Positions 3,456-9,093 of a stretch of 64,000 nucleotides of DNA are shown here, piece by piece. The DNA is taken from positions 1,178,001-1,242,000 of the forward strand of contig NZ_JBGNYA010000001.1 of assembly GCF_041477585.1 (NCBI RefSeq), given 5' to 3'. Origin of the DNA: Halobellus sp. MBLA0158 (lineage in GTDB: Archaea; Halobacteriota; Halobacteria; Halobacteriales; Haloferacaceae). Every line of letters starts with the position of its first letter. Within the stretch, counting starts at the first letter, position 1. A model generated the notes under the pieces. The model was not told where the DNA came from and ran no database searches. It was given only the letters and a program-made list of their open reading frames with translations. Position numbers and translations under genes: made by a program.

Positions 3456-4217
3456 ATGCCAGAATTCGTCAAGACCGGCGTGGAGGGGCTCGACTCGATC
3501 CTCAACGGGGGTATCATCGAGAACGCGGCCGTCCTCGTCAGCGGAAACCCCGGTACCGGAAAGAGCCTGCTCGGCCTCCAGTTCCTCTACAACGGCGTTG
3601 ATATGTTCGACGAAGGCGGTATCTACCTCACCTTCGAGGAGACGAAAGACGACATCAGCCAGGCCGCCGAATCGATCGGCTTCGAGAAGTGGGACGAGTT
3701 CATCGAGGAGGGGCGTATCAAGATCTACGACAAGCGGACGCTGCTGCGGAGCGGCGACTTCTCAGACACCCTCGATACGATCCTCGACGACCTCCAGGAC
3801 ACCCAGTACGACCGGCTCGTGTTGGACTCGCTGACGATGTTCCAGCTCTTCTTCGAAGACGAGAAGGAACAGCGCCAGTACCTCCTGAAGTTCATCGACA
3901 TCCTGAAAGACAGCGGGCTCACCTCCATTCTGACGATGGAACAGTCGGCGGTGTTCCCCGAGACCGAGATCGGCCTTGAGAACTTCCTGACCGACGGCAA
4001 CATCTACCTGATCCAATCGCCTGCCGGCTCGACCTCGAACCGGTACGTCTGGGTGGCGAAGATGCGCAAGCAGGCGATCAAGAACTCGATGTTCCCCCTC
4101 GAAATCGAGGAGGGCGGGCTCAAGGTGTACGAGCAGGCCGCCGGGTTCTCGATGGTCGGCGAGTCGGCGCCGATGTTCGGTGACGGTGACGCGGGCGGCG
4201 GTGGCGGATTGGAGTAA
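3456..4217 (+). CDS. KaiC-like RecA-superfamily ATPase (CirA-like)
   Basis: 253-residue single-domain KaiC-type ATPase starting MPEFVKTGVEGLDSILNGG. Walker A is SGNPGTGKS (about residues 29-37), Walker B is DRLVLDSLTM (about 121-130), and the C-terminus is a Gly-rich tail. The start is fixed by GGAG about 12 bases upstream of the ATG at 3456 and by the family N-terminus; the longer open frame upstream is antisense to arlCE. Haloarchaeal KaiC homologues of this type sit beside arl genes and in Haloferax (cirA) influence motility versus rod/disk state (established knowledge). It diverges from arlCE and converges on the archaellins, so a motility-linked regulatory role is inferred. Confidence 0.85.
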   Translation: MPEFVKTGVEGLDSILNGGIIENAAVLVSGNPGTGKSLLGLQFLYNGVDMFDEGGIYLTFEETKDDISQAAESIGFEKWDEFIEEGRIKIYDKRTLLRSGDFSDTLDTILDDLQDTQYDRLVLDSLTMFQLFFEDEKEQRQYLLKFIDILKDSGLTSILTMEQSAVFPETEIGLENFLTDGNIYLIQSPAGSTSNRYVWVAKMRKQAIKNSMFPLEIEEGGLKVYEQAAGFSMVGESAPMFGDGDAGGGGGLE

Positions 4218-4364
4218 TTCGAGAACTGCTCGTTCGAAGAGAGCGTTTAGTCTGTTCAGCTGATATTCGTTTTCTCGGAATACGGCAGCGCTGCCGCTCC
4301 TCGTATCCTATTTCGAGAAAATGATGAGAATTCGTTCGTCGTCGACGCGAAGCTAGCTCTGGGT

Positions 4365-5000
4365 TTAGAGCTTGACGGGTTCGCCGGGGTTCTTGCCAGC
4401 GAGTTGCTGGGGCATCGTGAGGATGACCTGGGTCGTCCCACCAGTTCGGCTGGTAATCTCTAACTGGACCTGCTCACCAGTCGAGAGCCCTTCTCCAGTT
4501 TCACTAGTAGTTTCAATAGCTGACGTGTCGATCGTCACCTCGTAGCGATCAGAGGGACTGTTAAGCACTCCGAACGACCCATCGTCGTCTGTAACTTTCG
4601 ACAGGGCAAACATCGTACCAGTCCCGTCTGCGTCACCGTCAGACTCGGTCGTACTTGGAGTCTTATTTGTTAGAGTTTGTACATTATCTGCGCTGAGGTA
4701 TTTGATAGAGGTAGTGTTCATATCGACACTACTGGAGCCGGCAGCGAGACGCACGGTCATCGTAATGTTGGCGATATCTTCATTGTTGCCAACGGTCCCG
4801 TGCGTGTTGATCACATCGACGCGATTCGTGACCTTGTTCACACTCTCTTGACCAGCGTCCTCGGCAGTAGCTTGGAGGAAGCCAGCGGTGTTCACCAGGA
4901 CGCCGGCCGCGATCGCAGCGACTAGCACCATCGCGATAAACACGATGAGCGTACCGATACCGACTTGACCGCGTTCATCTTTGTTGAATATTTCAAACAT
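4365..5000 (-). CDS. Archaellin, short type, unit B second gene
   Basis: 211-residue archaellin, the structural subunit of the archaellum filament. N-terminus [20 protein letters not shown] is a class III signal peptide with the prepilin-peptidase site at the RG of ERGQ, followed by the hydrophobic polymerisation helix; the C-terminus ends with the conserved [14 protein letters not shown] core. The ATG at 5000 is preferred over the GTG at 5009 because GGTGA sits 5 bases before it and overlaps the TAG of the upstream archaellin, implying translational coupling. It is nearly identical to the archaellin at 5880-6509, differing mainly in the surface-exposed middle. NXT/S sequons (NTT, NKT, NIT) are possible N-glycosylation sites. 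Confidence 0.95.
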
Positions 5001-5009
5001 TTGTATCAC

Positions 5010-5678
5010 CTAGAGGGGAACCGGATCGTTGTTCTGCTTGCCGGCGAGTTGCTGGGGCATCGTGAGGATGACCTGCGTCGAGCCACCGGAGCGACTCGTC
5101 AGTTCGAGTTCGACCGAGTCGCCAGTCGAGAGGCCACCGGTACCACCTTCGACGAGCGAGGTGTTGATGACGATCTCGTATCGGTCCGCCTGACTATTCA
5201 GTACGGGATACGATGCATCGTCGTCATCCTCAAGCGCATATGCCGTGAATTCGGTCGAATTCAGACCGTAAGGATCGCTTGCCGTCCACTTGGATACGTT
5301 TCCGAGATCCTTGCCACCGTTCGTCGTCGCATTCTTGTATACGAGATTTTCGGCAGTCCCTCCACTCACGTAGTTTATGGTGGAACTTTCGAGTGAGACG
5401 CTCCCGGACCCGGCGGCGAGCCGAACCGTGAGATTCAGGCTGTCAACTGCGAACCCGTCTCCGGTATCGTTAACGATTCCGTGTGTGCTTACGACGTCCA
5501 TACGATTTGTGACCTTGTCGACGCTCTCTTGGCCAGCATCCTCGGCGGTAGCTTGGAGGAAGCCAGCGGTGTTCACCAGGACGCCGGCCGCGATTGCGGC
5601 GACCAGGACCATCGCGATGAACACGATGAGCGTTCCGATCCCGACCTGACCACGGTCGGTGTCGATGTTTTCGAACAT
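5010..5678 (-). CDS. Archaellin, long type, unit B first gene
   Basis: 222-residue archaellin beginning [20 protein letters not shown], with the class III cleavage site at RG, a hydrophobic helix to about residue 45, a variable middle, and the conserved [15 protein letters not shown] end. The start at 5678 matches the family; the frame stays open further upstream only through the 92-base leader shared with the other unit. It is the first gene of a two-gene operon (9-base gap to the next). Its paralogue at 6519-7184 shares the N- and C-terminal thirds almost exactly and differs in about 30 central residues, as expected for exposed D2/D3 surface. Confidence 0.95.
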
Positions 5679-5770
5679 AGTGTGTTGTCTCCAGTCTGGC
5701 CCCCGCGCCTCCTCCCCGGAGGTGAGGACCGTCACTCTGCCAGAATCTCGATCCATACATAATGGTATGG
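5679..5770 (-). repeat. Archaellin leader repeat, copy B
   Basis: 92 bases immediately 5' of archaellin unit B, identical by eye to 7185-7276. It contains the TATA-like box and an apparent 5' leader of 50-60 bases with a small hairpin (CCTC-CGGG-GAGG). Identity ends abruptly at 5771/7277. Confidence 0.9.
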
Positions 5771-5790
5771 GGCCAGATATCAAATTTGAT
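5756..5790 (-). promoter_or_regulatory. Archaellin unit B promoter with ATCA-N4-TGAT dyad
   Basis: On the minus strand the perfect palindrome ATCAAATTTGAT (5779-5790) lies with its centre 25.5 bp upstream of a TATA-like TTATGTA (5756-5762). The same arrangement and spacing occurs before unit A although the flanking bases have diverged, which suggests a selected operator. Confidence 0.65.
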
Positions 5791-5879
5791 TCTACCTCCG
5801 TCACTCAGGCTGATCGATAATATTAGCACAAAAATGAAAATCAGTTAAACACAAATCCTCAGCGCGGTCTGTCCTGGGT

Positions 5880-6509
5880 TTAGAGCTTGACGGGCTCGCC
5901 GGGGCTCTTGCCAGCGAGCTGCTGGGGCATCGTGAGGATGACCTGGGTCGTCCCGCCTGTCCGGCTGGTAATCTCTAACTGGACCTGCTCGCCGGTTGAG
6001 AGCCCTTCACCATCTTCACTGCCACTTTCAATAGCTGACGTGTCGATCGTCACTTCGTAGCGGTCTGATGCGCTGTTGAGGACACCGAAGGAGTCGTCAT
6101 CGTCCGCCACGTTCGTGAGGCTGAACGCGGTGCTAGTTCCGTCTCCATCGGTATCAGTTGCACCTGAAGTTTTATTTGTTAGGGTTTGTACATTATCTGC
6201 GCTGAGATATTTGATGGAGGTAGTGTTCATATCGACACTACTGGAGCCGGCAGCGAGACGCACGGTCATCGTAATGTTGGCGATATCTTCATTGGTGCCA
6301 ACGGTCCCGTGCGTGTTGATCACATCGACTCGGTTCGTGACCTTGTTCACACTCTCTTGACCAGCGTCCTCAGCAGTCGCTTGGAGGAAGCCAGCAGTAT
6401 TCACTAGCACGCCGGCCGCAATCGCGGCGACGAGGACCATCGCGATGAACACGATGAGCGTACCGATACCGACCTGACCGCGTTCGTCTTTGTTGAATAG
6501 TTCAAACAT
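5880..6509 (-). CDS. Archaellin, short type, unit A second gene
   Basis: 209-residue archaellin starting [20 protein letters not shown], with prepilin-peptidase site, polymerisation helix and conserved C-terminal [14 protein letters not shown]. The ATG at 6509 has the same GGTGA Shine-Dalgarno overlapping the upstream stop as its paralogue at 4365-5000. The two short archaellins are almost identical for the first 110 residues and last 50, with small indels between ([10 protein letters not shown] here). The gene is followed by the 200-base promoter region of unit B, so units A and B are probably separate transcripts. Confidence 0.95.
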
Positions 6510-6518
6510 GTGTATCAC

Positions 6519-7184
6519 CTAGAGGGGGACCGGATCGTTGTTCTGCTTGCCGGCGAGTTGCTGGGGCATCGTGAGGATGACCTGGGTCGAACCCCCAGAG
6601 CGGCTCGTGAGTTCCAGTTCGACCGAATCGCCAGTGGAGAGGCCACCGGTGGTTTCCTCAACTACAGATGTATTAATGACAATCTCGTACCGATCGGCTT
6701 GGCTGTTCAACACCGGGAATGATGCGTCGTTATCGTCTTCTAGCGGGTACGCGGTAAATTCGGTCGAATTGAGACCTCGCGCACTTCCTGTCTGGCTCTC
6801 GCTCACGTTGAGGAGCGTGCCATCCGGTGCAGTCTCGTTATTATAGACGAGGTTTCTGGCGGTGGACCCACTCACGTAGTTTATTGTGGAACTTTCGAGT
6901 GAGACACTCCCGGACCCGGCAGCGAGCCGAACCGTGAGATTCAGGCTGTCAACAGTTAGCTCGCTCCCGGCATCGCTAACGATTCCGTGTGTGCTTACGA
7001 CGTCCATACGATTCGTGACCTTGTCGACGCTCTCTTGGCCAGCGTCCTCAGCAGTCGCTTGGAGGAAGCCAGCAGTGTTCACCAGGACGCCGGCCGCGAT
7101 TGCGGCGACCAGGACCATCGCGATGAACACGATGAGCGTTCCGATCCCGACCTGACCACGGTCGGTGTCGATGTTTTCGAACAT
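6519..7184 (-). CDS. Archaellin, long type, unit A first gene
   Basis: 221-residue archaellin starting [20 protein letters not shown]. Signal peptide, hydrophobic helix and C-terminus match the paralogue at 5010-5678 while the central region differs (for example [16 protein letters not shown]). Start 7184 is chosen by family N-terminus and by the shared leader. It is the first gene of unit A, transcribed toward the arl operon but separated from it by the second unit and the KaiC-like gene. Sequons NLT, NVS, NST and NTS are visible. Confidence 0.95.
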
Positions 7185-7276
7185 AGTGTGTTGTCTCCAG
7201 TCTGGCCCCCGCGCCTCCTCCCCGGAGGTGAGGACCGTCACTCTGCCAGAATCTCGATCCATACATAATGGTATGG
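7185..7276 (-). repeat. Archaellin leader repeat, copy A
   Basis: 92 bases identical by eye to 5679-5770, directly upstream of archaellin unit A. Together with the coding similarity this marks the two archaellin units as a tandem duplication of about 1.5 kb. Confidence 0.9.
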
Positions 7277-7296
7277 TCTTAGAAATCAGATCTGAT
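7262..7296 (-). promoter_or_regulatory. Archaellin unit A promoter with ATCA-N4-TGAT dyad
   Basis: The perfect palindrome ATCAGATCTGAT (7285-7296) has its centre 25.5 bp upstream (minus strand) of TTATGTA (7262-7268). The rest of the 312-base gap between this unit and the regulator gene (7297-7496) is AT-richer than its surroundings and holds no gene that I can see. Confidence 0.65.
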
Positions 7297-7496
7297 ATTG
7301 GTGTCTTATCGACTGAAACGGCAGAACTGACCACTTAGATGCAGAAAACAGAACTCCTCAACAGTTCACCACCGACAATATTAGCTGCATCTCGGCCTGT
7401 AGCTACATCCGCATCAACCTCGGCCGTTCTATTGTTCCCCAACAGACGGTTGATCTCCGATATTACGCGTTGCTCTCGCCACTCACGTGGGCGAAT

Positions 7497-7835
7497 TTAC
7501 TCGCTGGAGATTTGCCGCCAGACGTCGTCGAGCTTGTTCTTCACTTCGGGTCGGTCCGTGACCTCGATGTTGAGTTCGTTCTCGTTGAACTCGATTATGA
7601 TTTCGTCGACCTCCCGCCGGTAGACGTTGGTCCGTCGGTGTTCGTCCGAGAGAACGCGGTCGTGCAGTTCCAGCAGTCCCGCCCCAGTGAGTTCCTCGAT
7701 CCGACGATAGCAGGTCGCGATCGGGATATCGAGCATATCGCTGAATTCCTGGGCGGAGTGGGCTTCGTCGGCAGCGCGCAGGATATCGGGATTGTACTCG
7801 TTCCCGAGCGCTGACAGCGTCCTATCGGACTCCAT
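7497..7835 (-). CDS. Winged-helix transcription regulator beside archaellin genes (EarA-like candidate)
   Basis: 112-residue protein with an ArsR-like winged helix-turn-helix: the recognition region is SAQEFSDMLDIPIATCYRRIEELTGAGLLE (about residues 26-55), followed by a wing (DEHRRTNVYRREVDEIIIEF). A short acidic C-terminus follows. It lies upstream of both archaellin units on the same strand, as archaellum regulators of the EarA type do in other archaea; the equivalence is inference. It is the best local candidate for binding the ATCA-N4-TGAT dyads. Its own upstream region carries ATCGGTATTGAT at 7888-7899, so autoregulation is possible. Confidence 0.8.
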   Translation of the reverse strand: MESDRTLSALGNEYNPDILRAADEAHSAQEFSDMLDIPIATCYRRIEELTGAGLLELHDRVLSDEHRRTNVYRREVDEIIIEFNENELNIEVTDRPEVKNKLDDVWRQISSE

Positions 7836-8076
7836 AGATACTCCCCTATTCTACGTGGAATTACCTCAATGTGACGGTCGGTGAAATATCGGTATTGATA
7901 CTGAAAACTGACGGCGAGAGCGTCAGTATCGTTCATTTACGGGTGAGTCGTTCGTTCACGATCGGCGCGAAGGGCTCGATTCGGTTTCGCACAGCGCAAA
8001 TCGAGTCTGTTCCGCCGACCGAGCTGAGTTTTACGCCTGCGATGGGCTTATTATCGCGCCGACGACACCACGAGGT

Positions 8077-8634
8077 ATGGCCCCGGCGGACCCCACAGAC
8101 GACGCGCATCCACACGCGCGTGAAGATGAGGGTGTCGTCAGGCCCGACGAACTCGACTACACCGCCTCCGAGCGGGTCGCAGAACTCGACGAGGGGCGAT
8201 ACGTCGTCGCGACCGACAACGACGAGACGCCCTCGGTCGACGATGGCGACGAGGAGGCGGTCGAGGACCGGGGCAGCCTCGCCCGCCAGCAGATGGCCCG
8301 TTACGTCTCCGAACAGGACGCGGACTACGGGTTCGCCCTCACCGCGGCGTTCGACGGCGAGGTCGCTCACCACGAGCACTTCTCGGACGACGTCGCGACC
8401 GCGTTCGGCGAACTGACCTCGTGGTACGTCGACCAGATCGACACCGACGCCTCGACGCGAAAGGCGCTCGCGATCCTCCTCTTGGCGTCGGACACGCAGG
8501 TCTCCTACCCCACGAAAGCGCTGGCGTCGGTGCTCAACCGACACGGCCTCAGCCTCGACGATTCGATCGCGGACCTCGTCAGCGCGCTCCGCGGCGAGGG
8601 GCTCCAGATCCCGTCGGACCCGCCCGAGGAGTGA
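8077..8634 (+). CDS. Acidic haloarchaeal protein of unknown function in motility island
   Basis: 185 residues. The first 90 are acidic and probably disordered; the C-terminal half (from about DADYGFALTAAFDGEVAHHEHF) looks globular and helical. No catalytic motif, signal peptide or membrane segment is visible. The start at 8077 (MAPADPTDDAHPHARE) follows an AT-rich GGGCTTATTATCGCG about 30 bases upstream. The gene lies between the winged-helix regulator (divergent) and cheY (same strand, 90-base gap with its own promoter). Its position suggests a role in archaellum or taxis control, but nothing in the protein proves this. Confidence 0.75.
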   Translation: MAPADPTDDAHPHAREDEGVVRPDELDYTASERVAELDEGRYVVATDNDETPSVDDGDEEAVEDRGSLARQQMARYVSEQDADYGFALTAAFDGEVAHHEHFSDDVATAFGELTSWYVDQIDTDASTRKALAILLLASDTQVSYPTKALASVLNRHGLSLDDSIADLVSALRGEGLQIPSDPPEE

Positions 8635-8668
8635 GCCAGACCGCTCCGTTCGGCCGTCGCTCTCCCGT

Positions 8669-8701
8669 ATCATCACTGATAATGGGGGCGATGCGTTTAT
8701 A
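8669..8701 (+). promoter_or_regulatory. cheY promoter with ATCA-N4-TGAT dyad
   Basis: ATCATCACTGAT (8669-8680) is centred 24 bp upstream of TTTATA (8696-8701). The ATG of cheY at 8725 is also preceded by a clear Shine-Dalgarno GGAGGG 5 bases away, so the gene can be read both from near its promoter and with an SD. Confidence 0.65.
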
Positions 8702-8724: not shown

Positions 8725-9093
8725 ATGGCACGCAGCGTACTGGTGGTCGACGACTCGGCGTTTATGCGGAACCTGCTGAAGCAGTTGCTGGAAGACGACC
8801 ACGAGGTCGTGGGAGAAGCCGAGAACGGCGTCGAGGCGGTCGAGCTGTATCGGGAACTCGATCCCGACGTCGTCACGATGGACGTGGTGATGCCGATCCG
8901 CAACGGGATCGAAGCCACCTCCGAGATCAAGTCGATCGACCCCAACTCATCGGTGATTATGTGTACGTCCGTCGGACAGGAAGAGAAGATGCGGGAGGCC
9001 GTCGAAGCGGGCGCTGACGGCTACATCACGAAGCCGTTCCAGAAGCCCAACGTCCTCCAGGCCATCGACGACGTGGTGGGCGTCGAAGCATGA
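8725..9093 (+). CDS. cheY: Chemotaxis response regulator CheY
   Basis: 122-residue stand-alone receiver domain. It takes phosphate from CheA and signals to the archaellum motor, in haloarchaea through CheF adaptors and ArlCE/ArlD. Key residues are present: acidic pair Asp9-Asp10, phospho-acceptor Asp53 (VVTMDVVMP), Thr81 and Lys103 (YITKPFQ). No output domain is present. Its stop overlaps the cheC start (ATGA), so cheY-cheC-cheD form one operon. cheA, cheB and cheR are not adjacent here. Confidence 0.97.
   Translation: MARSVLVVDDSAFMRNLLKQLLEDDHEVVGEAENGVEAVELYRELDPDVVTMDVVMPIRNGIEATSEIKSIDPNSSVIMCTSVGQEEKMREAVEAGADGYITKPFQKPNVLQAIDDVVGVEA

Follow-up and report, generated by a model that had tools for sequence, protein, structure and literature searches.

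The archaellin locus of Halobellus sp. MBLA0158 probably holds a tandem duplication of two complete expression cassettes, with ends homogenised by gene conversion and middles that have diverged. It lies in a window of 64 kb (the whole stretch of DNA analysed) from a Halobellus genome of 3.29 Mb in 2 contigs, called G000 below. Reading away from a csmR-like gene, the minus-strand order is long A, short A, long B, short B, and the two units, both on that strand, are offset by 1,506 bp:

3456..4217, plus strand: KaiC-like ATPase (PF06745), a candidate for cirA from its position and family
4365..5000, minus strand: short archaellin, unit B (211 aa; PF01917 match)
5010..5678, minus strand: long archaellin, downstream unit B (222 aa; PF01917 match)
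5569..5770, minus strand: exact 202-bp repeat, unit B copy (92-bp leader and first 110 coding bases)
5689..5692, minus strand: Shine-Dalgarno-like GGAG, unit B (the unit A copy lies 1,506 bp higher)
5756..5762, minus strand: TATA-like TTATGTA, unit B (putative TATA box, from the leader alignment)
5880..6509, minus strand: short archaellin, unit A (209 aa; PF01917 match)
6519..7184, minus strand: long archaellin, upstream unit A (221 aa; PF01917 match)
7075..7276, minus strand: exact 202-bp repeat, unit A copy (92-bp leader and first 110 coding bases)
7262..7268, minus strand: TATA-like TTATGTA, unit A (putative TATA box, at a conserved place in the leader alignment)

Two long-then-short archaellin units had been proposed in an earlier note, and this reading stands: all four open reading frames are present on the minus strand, and their products score 109-123 bits each against Arch_flagellin (PF01917), above the curated cut-off of 29.5 bits. 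The four proteins all carry the short charged leader with terminal RG expected of archaellins under their cleavage rule. The proposed overlap of the second Shine-Dalgarno with the first stop is likewise found, both junctions reading TCTAGGTGATACA(A/C)ATG. With two operon copies, here adjacent, the locus resembles the tandem duplicated two-archaellin operons of Halorubrum, and both units are predicted to be transcribed and their products built into the filament. ArlC/E, ArlF and ArlG are encoded on the same side of the archaellin units as the KaiC-like gene, with DUF7500, cheY, cheC and cheD genes on the opposite side. The DUF7500 protein gene (8077-8634), between csmR and cheY, occupies the same place in 12/12 genus loci and may belong to the motility cluster.

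We propose a model where an archaellin operon of the arlA1-arlA2 type would have been duplicated in tandem, each copy forming a complete expression cassette of CsmR-type operator, TATA-like box, structured 5' leader, Shine-Dalgarno and two archaellins. Gene conversion would then keep alike the leader, the N-terminal coding region for the filament core and, in the long genes, the final C-terminal bases, and the middle of the genes, where the copies would pair poorly, would escape conversion and reach a between-species level of divergence.

Comparisons drew on 17 genomes of the genus Halobellus, 12 of them with a PF01917 match (the relatives include captivus, G001; clavatus, G002; inordinatus, G003; rarus, G006; rufus, G008; salinus, G010; and sp. 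Atlit-31R, G012), and on 57 loci from a search with a CsmR alignment; single loci carry L numbers below. Two contiguous units are found in G000, G001 and G009, and G002 has two leaders with a contig break inside the repeat, so that at least 4 of the 12 archaellin-bearing genomes carry duplicated units. Seven genomes have a single unit (G003, G004, G005, G006, G007, G010 and G012), and G008, in which the contig breaks inside the first long gene, was left outside the unit count. Another genus of the family also features a tandem pair of two-archaellin units, the distance between its leaders being 1,493 bp (G057; L101 and L112). In this G057 pair the middle of the long gene is the most divergent part, with a window identity of 0.58 against 0.98 in the first window and 1.00 in the last. 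In two Halovenus loci (L056, L067) a CsmR-like gene precedes a row of archaellin genes, six in the first and five in the second.

Each unit of G000 is preceded by an inverted repeat, and related sites lie further upstream:

5777..5792, minus strand: CsmR-type operator, unit B (GAATCAAATTTGATAT, 2 mismatches, core ATCA-N4-TGAT intact)
7283..7298, minus strand: CsmR-type operator, unit A (ATATCAGATCTGATTT, 1 mismatch)
7497..7835, minus strand: CsmR orthologue (112 aa, Pfam HTH_20)
7886..7901, minus strand: weaker CsmR-like site upstream of csmR (2 mismatches)
8667..8682, strand unassigned: CsmR-like site upstream of cheY (GTATCATCACTGATAA, 2 mismatches; at most 2 mismatches in 12/12 genus loci)
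8725..9093, plus strand: cheY (Response_reg match)

The repeat, approximately ATATCA-N4-TGATAT, occurs at the same place in 16/16 genus leaders with at most 2 mismatches and with varying spacer bases, and was recognised in the Halobellus leaders before being compared with the published motif TATCA(N4)TGATA, obtained for the motility regulator CsmR by ChIP-seq in Haloferax volcanii (Nussbaum et al. 2026, PMC13286277, in the portion available to us). The CsmR assignment is that of a small winged-helix protein just upstream of an arlA1-arlA2 type pair: the gene product matches HTH_20, sits at the corresponding place and is 83% identical to its counterparts in 12 Haloferax loci with the gene 5' of two archaellins. 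At those 12 Haloferax loci the operator is present throughout, with at most 1 mismatch and at -100 to -108; it has 2 mismatches in L039, and no site with 3 or fewer mismatches is found in the 230 bases before the first archaellin of L040 and L053. The short genes of L032-L037 and L041-L052 likewise have no such site in their 230 preceding bases, as would fit a single transcript per unit. By whole-genome scan, exact matches number 10 in nine archaellin-bearing genomes, 9 of the 10 at an archaellin leader, with none in G000, G004 or G007, and a reversed control pattern gave 1 site in the 17 genomes. The genomes without a PF01917 match (G011 and G013-G016, two of these at just 68 and 72% completeness) hold 13 exact matches, so that the motif is not confined to archaellins. 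In G000, at least 4 of the 55 sites with at most 2 mismatches fall within a 5-kb archaellin/csmR/cheY block (Poisson p 1.9e-6, for a block chosen afterwards). The site upstream of csmR, 65-72 bases before the gene, recurs in 10/12 loci with at most 3 mismatches, a level at which chance matches occur. From the place and sequence of these sites, CsmR would be expected to bind both unit operators.

The two leaders (7185-7276 and 5679-5770) had been called identical by eye; they are so at 92/92 positions, and the exact match extends to 202 bp, the longest exact direct repeat within 4200-7900. Over their whole length units A and B agree at 1212/1397 aligned bases. Immediately 5' of the 202-bp block the A and B flanks are unrelated, except for the palindrome 6 bases away in both, and the best local alignment of these flanks, 109 bp each, covers 13 bases. 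Near-identity of the coding ends of the long genes, also claimed earlier, is borne out at the N-terminal side (110 bases exact) and at the C-terminal side is limited to the last window, where columns 631-690 have an identity of 0.98 and the preceding windows 0.88, 0.86 and 0.74. In the first ~150 columns of the short genes the paralog is not the best match, or is tied best only.

Silent divergence is strongly patterned along the genes. Across four regions, cut after the alignment had been seen, dS of the long pair (Nei-Gojobori, with values above 1 being rough) is 0.13 (N-terminal), 0.30, 2.52 (central) and 0.96 (C-terminal) in G000, 0.13, 0.03, 1.35 and 0.07 in G001, and 0.09, 0.45, 1.11 and 0.26 in G009. 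The unevenness of silent codon differences across these regions is significant in all three long pairs (p 2.7e-10 by chi-square in G000, 8.8e-8 in G001 and 0.024 in G009), as well as in the short pairs of G000 (p 9.5e-4) and G009 (p 1.2e-4). The longest run of identical silent sites in the G000 long pair spans 34 of 186 comparable third positions (permutation p 1.5e-4, a value shared by the long pairs of G001 and G009), with permutation p of 0.0012 and 0.019 for the short pairs of G000 and G009. In most middle windows of the long genes, the nearest row is another species and not the paralog. These data support gene conversion between units A and B, and we would attribute the homogenised ends to conversion rather than to repeated crossing-over. 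The earlier note had spoken of ongoing conversion; the patchy silent divergence, repeated in two relatives, upholds the conversion, and its being ongoing is more than one genome can date. We also tested conversion within a unit, between long and short genes, where the signal is weak: it amounts to three silent sites (p 0.011, noticed post hoc), and N-terminal sites of this type are absent in G001 and G009.

A different account of this pattern would have the units duplicated recently in this lineage, with fast diversifying selection then acting on surface-exposed segments, as suggested by the sister position of the whole long genes (100/100) and by amino acid differences being greatest in the centre. 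Its weak point is the silent sites: a dS of 2.52 in the middle, rough and near saturation, against 0.13 at the start is more than selection on amino acids alone can produce, and it was on this synonymous saturation that we dropped the idea. The selection for surface variation proposed in the earlier note is also not supported by dN/dS, which is below 1 in every region of the MBLA0158 pairs: 0.00, 0.37, 0.12 (central) and 0.03 for the long pair and 0.02, 0.14, 0.13 (central) and 0.09 for the short pair (Nei-Gojobori), in a table where a few cells lack a ratio as dS is saturated. The sole value above 1 is 1.60, for the N-terminal region of the G001 short pair, where it reflects 1 silent change and 5 replacements, and where the gene contains an assembly gap. 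We consider this account very improbable; judged by the substitution pattern, weak constraint together with a lack of homogenisation would be enough to explain the central divergence. An AlphaFold model of long A, poor overall (mean pLDDT 62.8), features an N-terminal helix at 14-53 and low-confidence segments at 116-140 and 150-162, which are compatible with an exposed loop, though no proof of one.

As the central excess includes near-saturated synonymous change, it points to age or to imported sequence. Import would mean that the central cassette of one copy was swapped for DNA of another Halobellus, in which case the duplication need not be old, and in 60-column windows the middle of long A indeed resembles G001 long B (0.71-0.74) and that of long B resembles G006 (up to 0.77); archaellin exchange between taxa has moreover been argued for Halorubrum (PMC7349177, in the part available to us). 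Set against this, the other genus genomes compared offer no donor closer than these similarities, and central GC3 (0.63 and 0.57) falls inside the range of the others (0.56-0.87), albeit at its low end, and we regard import as unlikely. Still harder to credit than either of these accounts is that strong functional constraint alone, with no conversion, made the leaders identical. The leader is matched in 10/17 genus genomes, G000 included, and its hairpin covaries, and conservation across the genus does make it more than a by-product of conversion; yet the best near-full-length leader from another species reaches 86% (shorter parts 90-100%), against 100% between copies A and B over 92 bp and 110 coding bases.

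Under the favoured reading, duplication with homogenised ends, the age of the duplication depends on which part of the unit is consulted. The expectation that the units would be each other's closest relatives holds for the whole long genes, whose trees pair A with B in G000 (100/100) and in G001 and G009 (100/99 each), and fails for the G001 and G009 leaders: in the leader tree the B leaders of the two species group together (100/100) as do their A leaders (86/86), and within-species pairing is rejected by AU tests (p 0.0078 and 0.0084). Because the leaders group by unit, the duplication in G001 and G009 would most simply predate the separation of these species, with homogenisation making their long paralogs look young; the same leader pattern could arise if a unit had passed from one of these species to the other. 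In G000 the leaders are sisters (99/96) and so have been homogenised as well, which makes the age of the duplication unreadable from them. Trees of the middle of the G000 long genes neither support nor reject A/B sisterhood (44/7 and 52/26), leaving an old duplication unproven for G000, where import of the middle from another strain would look alike. Regional trees of the short genes are similarly divided, with A and B pairing together in G000 (96/93, 98/98, 87/89 and 99/100) and mostly not in G001 and G009. Between these two relatives the short types look swapped, G001 short A resembling G009 short B and the reverse, which suggests reshuffled long-short pairings (L019, L029); within-species pairing of these short genes was not rejected by AU tests (p 0.12-0.18).

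Within the leader, a hairpin is predicted between promoter and start codon:

5698..5730, minus strand: 5'-leader hairpin, unit B (consensus fold and covariation)
7204..7236, minus strand: 5'-leader hairpin, unit A (sequence identical to the unit B copy)

In the consensus stem of 15 aligned genus leaders 95.6% of cells are paired, a figure favoured by the derivation of the structure from the same alignment. Changes on both sides affect 5/9 stem pairs, a count reached by 9/500 shuffles, and stem covariation is 0.395 against 0.278 ± 0.027 in shuffles, with 0/500 as high and at most 0.198 when the stem is slid along the alignment; pair types, by contrast, are no more numerous than expected, 67/500 shuffles being as high. 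A covariance model found 24 places in 19/170 family genomes. Of these, 16 are genus leaders (the 15 aligned and the second, identical G000 copy), and the remaining 8, from two further genera (g10, g16), each closely precede a long archaellin. Run on 37 loci, 12 of them Haloferax, model R1 scored strongly in the Halogeometricum loci L039 and L040, which by scores and positions appear to be G056 and G054 of g10, at chance level in L066 and L070 (E 0.5 and 0.6), and in 0 of the 12 Haloferax loci. The Haloferax hairpin consequently rests on single folds, which place a hairpin at the matching position in 12/12 leaders; RNAalifold on a MAFFT alignment of these 12 did not return it, perhaps because of indels. 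Folding energy is clearly low in Haloferax (mean z -1.97, 12/12 below -1), moderately so in L039, L040, L101 (two), L103 and L106 (mean z -1.17, 3/6 below -1) and weakly so in Halobellus (mean z -0.51, 5 of 16 windows of 46 bases below -1, where the two G000 copies are identical and the G001_B and G009_B windows cut the stems), and ten 71-base leaders range from z 0.57 to -2.75. No Rfam 15 covariance model matched window positions 4000-8000 at E up to 1, and among the literature matches listed no title or abstract start concerned an archaellin leader hairpin.

Two candidate roles were dropped. Masking of the Shine-Dalgarno is disfavoured by the consensus fold, in which GGAG lies outside the stem, even as single folds pair part of GGAG in some leaders (e.g. 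L026), and the 12 Haloferax leaders have the hairpin without, by eye, a GGAG before the start; a translated leader is broken by between-species indels that disrupt the frame. The hairpin would act on the stability or translation of archaellin mRNA. It is possible, if somewhat short of probable, that it constitutes an undescribed cis-acting RNA: a hairpin between CsmR promoter and start codon, found in at least three genera with compensatory changes, kept in Haloferax without GGAG, setting the stability or translation of filament mRNA and open to homogenisation along with its unit. With this putative function, the hairpin would be the most novel element of the locus.

Most mRNAs in this group are leaderless, and a genuine leader hairpin would mean that archaellum control has a post-transcriptional layer as well. 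More generally, the locus offers a natural case of a filament gene family whose ends seem homogenised while the part between them is free to vary, in which a whole-gene tree can misdate duplications, and two intact CsmR-type cassettes side by side raise the question of selection on copy number or on subunit mixing.

Among known systems, concerted evolution in prokaryotes leaves paralogs more alike within than between species (PMC6053082), and polyploid Haloferax performs efficient intermolecular gene conversion (PMC11276520); the likeness to our case is homogenisation within species, archaellins being absent from the portions of both papers available to us. No title or abstract start among the literature matches listed concerned archaellin gene conversion or Halobellus archaellin operons. 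In Halorubrum, 9/50 genomes have an additional, probably duplicated flaB1-flaB2 operon (Pyatibratov et al. 2020, PMC7349177), likewise a two-archaellin operon with an extra copy, but in that genus FlaB2 is longer than FlaB1 (the two being 36% identical in strain DL18), whereas the Halobellus order is long then short; the part of that paper available to us analyses neither operators nor conversion between the duplicated operons. Recombination that deletes units or makes chimeras, anticipated in the earlier note, has left no such product at this locus and has been published for Halorubrum lacusprofundi ACAM 34, where recombination is inferred to have removed one archaellin gene, leaving a chimeric signal peptide (PMC7349177, same portion). 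With Haloferax volcanii the locus shares a winged-helix csmR (HVO_1209) just upstream of arlA1-arlA2, the motif TATCA(N4)TGATA and a KaiC-like gene beyond the archaellins (cirA, beyond arlA2, in Haloferax), the CsmR targets there being archaellum and chemotaxis genes; a word search of the available text for 'duplicat' found one place, in the sequencing sense (PMC13286277). As far as that text goes, Haloferax has one two-archaellin operon here, whereas Halobellus has two, each with its own site. Recurring in the genus and in Halorubrum, the duplicated two-archaellin operon is a known kind of arrangement; what the present locus adds is that each copy keeps a complete CsmR-type promoter together with a candidate leader RNA element.
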